A DNA stretch of 49,857 nucleotides from Bacillota bacterium. GTDB lineage: Bacteria; Bacillota; UBA5301. Below, piece by piece: positions 24,739 to 27,245 of this stretch. Positions within the stretch are counted from its first letter, which is position 1, and each line of letters starts with the position of its first letter. The DNA is taken from positions 1 through 49,857 of the forward strand of contig JAAYHC010000013.1 of the NCBI GenBank assembly GCA_012735535.1. Direction: 5' to 3'. A model generated the notes under the pieces. That model ran no database searches. It had not been told where the DNA came from and saw only the letters and a program-made list of their open reading frames with translations. The position numbers and the translations under genes were made by a program.

Positions 24739-25458
24739 CTAATAATCTGTGGTTCCAACTCGCCGCATTTCGGGTAAGTCAAAATTATAGTAGAGGTCTT
24801 CACGACGGCGCGTTTTTTTGGGCACCTGCGGGCTGAGCAATGAACCGTATTTGTTCACGATCCGCTGTAGTTTTAACCGCACCCGCGTCCGGGCATTATC
24901 AATGACTTTCGGTGCGATACCATACTCTTCTTGGATCTCGTGGTAGCTGTACCCCTCAAGAAGCTTGCGAATGACCGTATACTCAAGAACAGAGAGATGA
25001 TCCCGCAAGAGCTGATCGATTCGTTCGTCGATAAACCTCGTCTCGATCACCTCTTCCGGATTGGATTTCTGATCATCATTCTCGATAATATCCATAACCA
25101 TCCGGGTTTCATCCAGATTGATGTAACTAAACAATGAAACTGCATCGTTTAACGCCCGGTGCTTGTTGCCGTTAATCCGTTTAATGACATTGTAGATCTT
25201 GCGGATGATGCAGATGTAAGCAAAAGAAGAGAACTTAATGTTGTATCTGGTATGATCATACTCGTTAACCGCATTGATCAGCCCGATCATACCTTCTTGC
25301 ATCAAATCTTCGAATTCAAAAAACTTGGCGTAATAATTGCGGACAATATAGCGCACCAGTGGAGTATACTTTTCGACTAACTGCTCCATGGCGTCGCAAT
25401 CACCGGCCCGAACACGCGCCAGCAGCTCCAGGTCACGAATCTGATTATCCCCAAGCAT
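24739..25458 (-). CDS. Sigma-70 family RNA polymerase sigma factor, SigH-like
   Basis: The 239-residue product has sigma region 2 (FEFEDLMQEGMIGLINAVNE near residues 47-66, then IKFSSFAYICIIRKIYNVIK near 74-93) and a region 4 helix-turn-helix (LEGYSYHEIQEEYGIAPKVI near 167-186), with no region 3. The spacing and residues resemble the stationary-phase/sporulation factor SigH more than ECF or SigF/E/G factors. It differs in a basic, tyrosine-rich C-terminal tail of about 30 residues (PKKTRRREDLYYN). The usual sigH site near rpmG-secE is not in this window, so whether this is the only SigH or a paralogue is unknown. It follows spoVS by 73 bases. Start ATG 25458 has GGGGG upstream. Confidence 0.85.
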   Translation of the reverse strand: MLGDNQIRDLELLARVRAGDCDAMEQLVEKYTPLVRYIVRNYYAKFFEFEDLMQEGMIGLINAVNEYDHTRYNIKFSSFAYICIIRKIYNVIKRINGNKHRALNDAVSLFSYINLDETRMVMDIIENDDQKSNPEEVIETRFIDERIDQLLRDHLSVLEYTVIRKLLEGYSYHEIQEEYGIAPKVIDNARTRVRLKLQRIVNKYGSLLSPQVPKKTRRREDLYYNFDLPEMRRVGTTDY

Positions 25459-25531: not shown

Positions 25532-25792
25532 CTATCTTTTTTCCAACAAAAATTTGATGGCGGTCCGCCGCTCGCCGTCGATCTCAATCTCGTTGAACGA
25601 AGGGATGGCAACCAAATCAATACCATTCGGAGCAACGTAACCCCGGGCAATCGAGATCGCCTTGATGGACTGGTTAACCGCTGCGGCGCCGATGGCTTGC
25701 AGTTCCGCACGCCCTTCTTGGCGTACTAGGGCCGCAATTGCCCCGGCTAATGCTTTGGGGTTTGATTTTGCCGATACTTTGAGTATTTCCAT
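25532..25792 (-). CDS. spoVS: Stage V sporulation protein S (SpoVS)
   Basis: SpoVS is a small Alba-like-fold protein; in B. subtilis its loss blocks sporulation at stage V and alters septation. The 86-residue sequence matches the family throughout: EILKVSAKSNPKALAGAIA at the start, AAAVNQSIKAISIARGYVAP in the middle and AIKFLLEKR at the end. ATG 25792 has AGGAGG 9 bases upstream. It follows the unknown gene by 19 bases and precedes the SigH-like gene; in B. subtilis spoVS is transcribed by sigma-H, which makes this adjacency suggestive. Confidence 0.96.
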   Translation of the reverse strand: MEILKVSAKSNPKALAGAIAALVRQEGRAELQAIGAAAVNQSIKAISIARGYVAPNGIDLVAIPSFNEIEIDGERRTAIKFLLEKR

Positions 25793-25811: not shown

Positions 25812-26471
25812 CTATCCTGCAGCTAATACAGCGAAACGTCGGTTCAAAGAATCTAAAGTGGCTCGGACCGTAGCCAGAATCAGATCTCGTTCAATAATGC
25901 AAGTGCCCAGCAAGGTTTCTTGGCGGTTAGGATACAGAATAGTGACACAGCTTACTACTACGTCATTATGCGCAACCCGTTCGATTGCGGTGCCTTCCAA
26001 GATCAAGTGACAAGTATCCGGCAGAAATTGCGCAAGCGAATTCAAGACTGCCGTGGCGACCAAGCGCATCTTATTGGCCACCGTGTCAGCGCCCGCGGCG
26101 GTTCCCCGCTTCGTTTGCCCGTTGAAGCCCAGCTCCACCGAGACTTCGGAGATTAGGCCGCGACTACACGTCTCAATCCCGCAAATCTGCACCCGCATCG
26201 CCTGAGGACTCTTTTCTTTCTGGCCGATCCGGGCAATACTAATTATATTCTTATCAATAGTAAGATTCCAGCGCGACGTTAACAGGGTTTGGATATCCTG
26301 AGCCAGATATTTGGGGGCACGTTTGCCATCATACAGAACGTGAATCTCAATCAGCTTGCCGCTCCGGTCGGTTACCAAACGACTGGCAATTACACCGGTG
26401 ATCTGGTTGATGACCGATTCGATCTCGCGCAAGAGATCCGTGGTCAAGCCGCTTGCTTGCCCCTTCGCCAA
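25812..26471 (-). CDS. Conserved protein of unknown function with LeuA-regulatory-like C-terminal half
   Basis: I do not recognise a characterised homologue. The 219-residue protein is soluble, with no signal or membrane segment. Residues about 20-88 (VTDRSGKLIEIHVLYDGKRA ... IISIARIG) form a compact alpha/beta unit of a type I associate with conserved hypothetical proteins of Firmicutes and Actinobacteria. Residues about 108-215 (VSVELGFNGQTKRGTAAGA ... ATVRATLDSLNRR) follow the pattern of the regulatory domain of 2-isopropylmalate synthase (LeuA): strand, glycine-rich turn, helix, strands, final A-x-L-x-x-LN helix. No synthase domain is present. Start TTG 26471 has GGAGG 8 bases upstream. 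It lies between rnc and spoVS in the fatty-acid operon. A ligand-sensing role is only a guess. Confidence 0.8.
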   Translation of the reverse strand: MAKGQASGLTTDLLREIESVINQITGVIASRLVTDRSGKLIEIHVLYDGKRAPKYLAQDIQTLLTSRWNLTIDKNIISIARIGQKEKSPQAMRVQICGIETCSRGLISEVSVELGFNGQTKRGTAAGADTVANKMRLVATAVLNSLAQFLPDTCHLILEGTAIERVAHNDVVVSCVTILYPNRQETLLGTCIIERDLILATVRATLDSLNRRFAVLAAG

Positions 26472-26516
26472 TTACTTCGCCTCCTCGGACCGGCATAACA
26501 AAGCATTAATCAGCCT

Positions 26517-27245
26517 TTATATTTCTTTCCGACGATCGGAGTTTCCTTTATCATGCAGATCTGCGAGCATTTGCAGGGTCTGTTTGGCCGCCTTCTGCTC
26601 CGCCGCTTTCTTCGTCCTGCTCTCGCCCGAACCCCATTGCCGTCCGGCGAACTCGACCACCACCTCAAATTGACGATCATGGGGCGGACCTTTACAGGCG
26701 ACCTGCTGGTACTCAGGGGTCAGGGCATACAGCTTATAGACCTGTTCCTGCAAAATCCCTTTATAATCAGTATTCAAATCCGGATCGATCGTTGCAAAAA
26801 ATTGCTGCCAATGCGACAAGACCCAGGATTTAGCCTCGTCCAACCCGCGATTGATTGTTAACCAACCGATGATCGCCTCAATCGCGTCCGCCTGCACCGA
26901 AGGACGAAAATGCTGATTCTCATTGCGGGCACCCGCCCCAATTCTCAGCAGTTCGGCGATACCGAGCTGGTCGGCCAACTCAGCCAGCACCCGCTCCCGG
27001 ACCAACTCACTTTTTAATCTGGTCAGTATGCCTTCGGGGTAATCCGGGTACCGGAGATACAGGTACTCGGAAATAATGAAGCCCAGCACCGCATCGCCCA
27101 AGAACTCCAAGCGTTCATTGGACAAACGCCGGTCCCCGAACTCATTCGCCCACGATGAGTGAGTTAACGCCTGCAAGAACGAGTCGGCCTCGTCGCCACT
27201 TATCGGATAGATTGCTTGTAACCGGCGTATTTTTTCAGCGTCCAC
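26517..27245 (-). CDS. rnc: Ribonuclease III
   Basis: RNase III cleaves double-stranded RNA, including rRNA precursors. The 242-residue protein has the signature ERLEFLGDAVLGFIISEYL (near residues 44-62) with the catalytic acidic residues, and a C-terminal double-stranded RNA-binding domain (about 158-230, ending TKKAAEQKAAKQTLQML). Start is GTG 27245, two bases after the fabF stop; the ribosome site (GGGGAT) lies in the end of fabF. The acpP-fabF-rnc-smc order is common in Firmicutes. Confidence 0.97.
   Translation of the reverse strand: MDAEKIRRLQAIYPISGDEADSFLQALTHSSWANEFGDRRLSNERLEFLGDAVLGFIISEYLYLRYPDYPEGILTRLKSELVRERVLAELADQLGIAELLRIGAGARNENQHFRPSVQADAIEAIIGWLTINRGLDEAKSWVLSHWQQFFATIDPDLNTDYKGILQEQVYKLYALTPEYQQVACKGPPHDRQFEVVVEFAGRQWGSGESRTKKAAEQKAAKQTLQMLADLHDKGNSDRRKEI

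Follow-up and report, generated by a model that had tools for sequence, protein, structure and literature searches.

A two-domain protein encoded between rnc and spoVS with a C-terminal half resembling the LeuA regulatory domain

What is encoded between rnc (RNase III) and spoVS in the Bacillota bacterium of assembly GCA_012735535.1? The window analysed here is a stretch of 49,857 nucleotides (contig JAAYHC010000013.1, positions 1 to 49,857), and the gene in question, referred to as X, encodes a protein of 219 residues. Judged from profile comparison and a predicted fold, its C-terminal half is very probably a genuine, if distant, relative of the allosteric domain of 2-isopropylmalate synthase (LeuA). 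X and its domains are located as follows.

25812..26471 (stop codon included), minus strand: X, 219-residue two-domain protein (open reading frame [ORF] and translation; 34 of 61 related genomes with matches; AlphaFold pLDDT 93)
25815..26204, minus strand: C-terminal domain, residues 90-219, LeuA_dimer-like (hhalign, AlphaFold, Foldseek)
26205..26471, minus strand: N-terminal domain, residues 1-89, remotely ZT_dimer-like (AlphaFold, Foldseek, hhalign, conservation table)

According to the ORF list and translation, X starts with a TTG codon. On sequence evidence it is a real gene, because two further genera of its family have relatives, with 59% and 51% identity. Searched alone, X has no match in Pfam or NCBIfam and only chance matches by sequence in the PDB.

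The C-terminal domain

The initial annotation, made from the sequence alone, read the C-terminal half of X as having the layout of the LeuA allosteric domain, with its final helix and no synthase domain, and the N-terminal half as a different small alpha/beta unit. These four points are borne out. The family alignment comprised 34 members in a first round and was later enlarged to 113. When the 34 members were scanned singly, 10 matched Pfam LeuA_dimer (PF08502; best 2e-5) and no other family was matched as often. Most members score under the Pfam cut-off, and the orthologue of X in G001 lies barely above it (25.0 versus 24.9 bits). In hhalign, the C-terminal half of the 34-member family matched a LeuA_dimer profile of 29 domains taken from related genomes at 95.3% (P 2.4e-8, 113 columns). 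With 113 members the match rose to 96.1% (P 3.4e-9). In the 34-member round, the N-terminal half scored 0.4% against the LeuA_dimer profile. As controls, none of 60 column-shuffled LeuA profiles exceeded 2.0%, and none of 35 alignments of unrelated neighbouring genes exceeded 1.2%. The family profile thus resembles PF08502 over the whole domain, as is expected of a member of the LeuA_dimer superfamily.

The predicted structure is similar. AlphaFold models the whole of X with a pLDDT of 93 and the C-terminal domain alone with a pLDDT of 93 and a pTM of 0.89, and the order of elements is beta-beta-beta-alpha, twice. The top three PDB matches of this predicted domain in Foldseek are all Mycobacterium tuberculosis LeuA (3hps, 1sr9 and 3fig; probability 1.00, query-normalised TM-score [TMq] 0.53-0.60, root-mean-square deviation [rmsd] 4.2-4.4, 125 columns). 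The final helix of X (A..L..LNRR) corresponds to the final A..A.L.A.N helix of LeuA_dimer, which is in register in the profile match. The turn glycines G127 and G189 are conserved in X and, according to the conservation table, almost always present in the family. In the profile alignment they fall on two equivalent pre-helix turns where the LeuA motifs are GxGPVxA and GxGxSTD. We take these turns to be where LeuA contacts leucine.

The similarity could in principle reflect convergence of a simple beta-beta-beta-alpha repeat, X being unrelated to leucine or LeuA. Sequence identity is 10-15%, the TM-score is about 0.6, and a PDB sequence search with the 113-sequence family profile did not find LeuA, so that the kinship is visible to profile-profile and fold comparison only. 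However, the match extends over 113 columns, keeps the final helix in register and has a P-value of 3e-9; the nulls are clean and one orthologue exceeds the LeuA_dimer cut-off. We regard convergence as very improbable. A C-terminal half made of tandem double-stranded-RNA-binding domains was suggested by Foldseek and ruled out by hhalign against 11 RNase III sequences (0.2%).

X does not carry a synthase domain: the whole protein has 219 residues and no Pfam match, and the catalytic HMGL-like TIM barrel that 2-isopropylmalate and citramalate synthases have on the same chain is absent. The window genome has two separate genes of synthase length that carry the domain.

The N-terminal domain

AlphaFold predicts the order alpha-beta-beta-alpha-beta for the N-terminal half. 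A Foldseek search with the whole of X listed C-terminal domains of cation-efflux proteins (CzcD 6vd9, probability 1.00, target-normalised TM-score [TMt] 0.69; MamM; ZnT) as well as FliF RBM2. These matches span 70-90 residues and are assigned to the N-terminal half by our reading, the residue ranges not being printed. In hhalign against 29 ZT_dimer domains, this half scored 47% and then, with more sequences, 65% (P 6e-5), while shuffled nulls did not exceed 4%. It has no Pfam ZT_dimer match. Profiles and the predicted fold together suggest a weak relationship to ZT_dimer, the C-terminal domain of cation-efflux proteins.

The conserved motif of this domain in the family is E42.H44...R51..K54Q...R58D59...D73H74K75K76.S78. 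The window copy retains E42, H44, R51, K54, D59, D73 and S78 and carries Y55, Q58, K74, N75 and I76.

Gene neighbourhoods of the family

The neighbours of X and its expression signal are as follows.

26517..27245, minus strand: rnc (RNase III), upstream neighbour, 46 nucleotides from X (ORF list; position kept in 11 genomes)
26480..26486, minus strand: ribosome-binding site GAGGAGG of X, 8 nucleotides 5' of the TTG (read from the sequence)
25532..25792, minus strand: spoVS, downstream neighbour, 19 nucleotides from X (Pfam SpoVS, 2.7e-37; adjoins X in 12 genomes)
24739..25458, minus strand: sigma factor (SigH-like), next downstream after spoVS (Pfam Sigma70_r2, 1.3e-14; kept in most rnc-type loci)

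The genes rnc, X and spoVS lie on one strand. X in the window is probably co-expressed with the fatty-acid synthesis genes and spoVS. An Rfam search of the window gave no match.

The initial annotation called X an unknown protein and proposed conservation of the rnc-X-spoVS order as a check. The order is kept. Neither Pfam nor NCBIfam has a model for the family. The single-protein view was too narrow. X belongs to a large family that occurs in three gene neighbourhoods, the main one with hpf, HD-GYP and secA. Matches occur in 34 of 61 related genomes. In a sample of 399 genomes from the phylum, 173 have a match to the family profile (E <= 0.001), a few of the weakest being possibly due to chance or to LeuA itself. 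Among named genomes, those with relatives belong to Bacillota, Actinomycetota, Zixibacteria, Armatimonadota and Chloroflexota. Members were located by tblastn and profile search. The open-access literature yielded no paper on DUF5317, the hpf/HD-GYP/secA locus or a LeuA regulatory protein that stands alone.

In the first and majority neighbourhood the order is hpf-X-MASE9/HD-GYP-DUF5317-secA-prfB, the HD-GYP gene having Pfam HD_5 and MASE9 domains. The window genome also has such a copy, with hpf upstream (G000:C52:2874-3482). In the second, that of the window, the order is plsX-fabH-fabD-fabG-acpP-fabF-rnc-X-spoVS, usually followed by the sigma factor, smc and ftsY, and it is kept across many families. 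The X-spoVS pair occurs in 12 genomes (G000, G001, G002, G003, G006, G007, G054, G264, G302, G310, G216 and G331), with rnc upstream in 11. The exception is G302, where rnc was not detected and fabF precedes X.

In the third neighbourhood X lies beside a leucine dehydrogenase-like gene (ldh-type; nine loci: L037, L038, L242, L244, L247, L255, L256, L257 and L302). A NUDIX gene and/or spoIIM and xerD come after in most of these loci. Genes of vorA/B/G type for a 2-oxoacid oxidoreductase lie between the dehydrogenase and X in L242, L244 and L247, and VorB of L242 is above its NCBIfam cut-off (572 versus 399 bits). In a PDB search, the solved structures closest to the L242 and L037 dehydrogenases are leucine or generic Glu/Leu/Phe/Val dehydrogenases (1e-136 to 1e-144), and tryptophan and phenylalanine dehydrogenases rank behind. 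These dehydrogenases have only sub-cut-off matches in NCBIfam, the best being to ScyB.

The X proteins of the third neighbourhood form one clade (Shimodaira-Hasegawa approximate likelihood-ratio test [SH-aLRT] 97). Those of the second require up to 6 label changes in the free tree, and constraint to a single clade gave a p-value of 0.30 in the approximately unbiased test (p-AU). A single clade and several independent recruitments of rnc-type copies are thus neither shown nor rejected.

Several further features of these loci were observed. A gene of about 390 codons (c15) lies between hpf and X in some Bacillota (L131:7616-8851, L141:7672-8844, L035:8519-9661 and others); the L141 protein, the one tried, has no Pfam match, and by eye the product appears nucleotidyltransferase-like. 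Longer family members, of up to about 390 residues, occur in L293, L294, L295, L296, L298 and L037, where the two domains are matched as separate stretches or extra sequence is present. Members from Zixibacteria and one other bacterium (L106, L115, L129 and L169) form a separate clade with a different neighbourhood. In Actinomycetota carriers of X, hpf is preceded at a distance of a few kb by raiA/ModT RNA (Rfam RF03072; L118:3870-4113 and L136:3870-4113, both plus strand).

Between X and HD-GYP in the first neighbourhood there is an RNA-like element of about 220-250 nucleotides that is apparently undescribed. Examples are as follows.

L033:1231-1505, plus strand: RNA-like element
L136:9634-9908, plus strand: RNA-like element
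L108:9634-9880, plus strand: RNA-like element

Some 70 other hpf-type loci have it as well, and the copy in the window genome follows G000:C52 position 3485, the contig ending inside the small ORF. Of the 60 occurrences of the 10-mer AGCGGAGCGG in 1.88 Mb of loci, 45 are within about 420 nucleotides after X. In many loci it is followed by a ribosome-binding site and an ORF of about 24 codons (such as MKRIIVLLSSLAALALTGGAWFKW; type MKRIIxLLxxLAxLVLAGGAxxxW), and it is enclosed by a covarying long-range helix. Scores of the best 5'/3' helix average 31.1 over 74 loci, compared with 18.0 (standard deviation 3.1) when the 3' ends are shuffled. The closing helix is formed by highly divergent sequences (GGGCCAACG with CGTTGGCCC, CAAACCGCTTAA with TTAAGCGGTTTG), and RNAalifold keeps five closing pairs, each with changes on both sides in some sequences. 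The two examples tried have no Rfam match up to an E-value of 1. The core of the element (AGCGGAGC) was found after none of 11 rnc-type and none of 10 ldh-type copies.

Two alternative roles for X arise from these neighbourhoods. In the main one, X would belong to the stationary-phase or sporulation switch as a protein associated with RNA or the ribosome, with the ribosome hibernation factor hpf, RNase III or the Alba-like SpoVS as partner and the LeuA-like fold as a mere dimer scaffold. RNA-related genes are present in two of the three neighbourhoods (hpf; rnc and spoVS), a structured RNA element follows the hpf-type gene, and the basic residues R51, K54, R58, K75 and K76 of the N-terminal domain are conserved in most members. 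Furthermore, the Foldseek matches of the C-terminal domain that come next after LeuA are double-stranded-RNA-binding domains. However, profiles do not see this last likeness (RNase III, 0.2%) and the rmsd of those matches is 13-17, no RNA gene adjoins X in the leucine dehydrogenase neighbourhood, and R58, K75 and K76 are lost in the window copy. An RNA-related role is unlikely on balance, though it is the strongest competitor.

In the second, X is a cytosolic regulator of a signalling partner, which in the first neighbourhood would be the adjacent membrane MASE9/HD-GYP phosphodiesterase. The N-terminal domain would sense a nucleotide or metal, and the rnc-type copy would serve another partner. 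The HD-GYP gene, identified by its HD_5 and MASE9 domains, is directly downstream of X in the majority of hpf-type loci, in Bacillota as well as in Actinomycetota, and the resemblance of the N-terminal domain to cation-efflux C-terminal domains is consistent with such sensing. This role is less likely again, given that HD-GYP genes are missing near rnc-type and ldh-type copies and from some hpf-type genomes (L293, L294), and that the ZT_dimer likeness is weak.

Function and comparison with known systems

Our favoured reading, a tentative one that we put just short of an even chance, is that X is a soluble, non-enzymatic sensor or adaptor whose LeuA-type allosteric domain, freed from its synthase, acts as a branched-chain reporter. 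For its parts, we lean slightly towards X sensing a small molecule of some kind, with a branched-chain compound as the leading candidate ligand at somewhat less than even odds. Among independent lines of evidence, the one that speaks most for a sensor of branched-chain metabolites is the third neighbourhood, which joins a LeuA-like domain with leucine degradation. The kept fab-rnc-X-spoVS order also counts in its favour; in many Bacillota, fatty-acid initiation uses branched acyl-CoA primers.

Several observations weigh against this sensor. Identity to LeuA is low (about 15%), the segment that follows the first glycine turn exceeds that of LeuA by about 8 residues, and according to the conservation table the GP of most members is GA in the window copy. 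The window genome does not have a close leucine dehydrogenase, and only two of 12 rnc-type genomes have one. Finally, the genes of the majority neighbourhood (hpf, HD-GYP and secA) belong to translation and signalling, not to branched-chain metabolism.

The proposed model for X as a branched-chain sensor is as follows. The C-terminal domain would bind a branched-chain amino acid or derivative (leucine, a branched keto acid or an acyl-CoA) close to the glycine turns in front of its two helices. The bound state would be passed to the conserved ZT_dimer-like N-terminal domain and from there to a protein partner, by altered self-association or an altered surface. In the window, X would signal the state of branched-chain supply to lipid synthesis or sporulation. 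A broader version, in which a freestanding LeuA-type family uses a shared N-terminal output domain to convey the status of branched-chain amino acids or acyl compounds to three programmes (ribosome hibernation and cyclic-nucleotide signalling; fatty-acid synthesis and sporulation; leucine degradation), is unlikely in full.

To our knowledge, the LeuA-type regulatory domain has been found only within leucine and citramalate synthases. If the model is true, many Clostridia-type bacteria, a large share of them, have such a domain working as a sensor in its own right, and branched-chain supply, which sets membrane lipid composition, is linked to sporulation and ribosome hibernation. A conserved hypothetical gene of the fab-rnc-spoVS operon would also gain a function that can be tested. 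The observation on which the initial annotation rested is confirmed and its structural interpretation supported, and the proposed ligand and role are plausible.

The presence of CodY in the window had been offered as a further pointer, but CodY lies about 20 kb from X and adds no evidence. X may share a theme of control with CodY, SpoVS and other branched-chain or sporulation regulators, although no relation in sequence or fold to them was found. The N-terminal half of X has the predicted alpha-beta-beta-alpha-beta order in common with the ZT_dimer domain (PF16916) of cation diffusion facilitators, and both have a histidine in strand two. However, X is without a transporter domain, and the conserved residues of its family (R51, K54, R58-D59, D73-H74) differ. 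The hpf-linked paralogue in the window genome belongs to the same two-domain family (residues 18-218 matched, 32% identity), but its neighbourhood differs and the conserved RNA-like element follows it; its group mostly keeps R58 and H74-K75-K76, which the window copy does not have. With the LeuA domain (PF08502) of 2-isopropylmalate and citramalate synthases, X shares profile similarity (P 3e-9). In place of the synthase and linker domains of those enzymes, X has its N-terminal partner domain.
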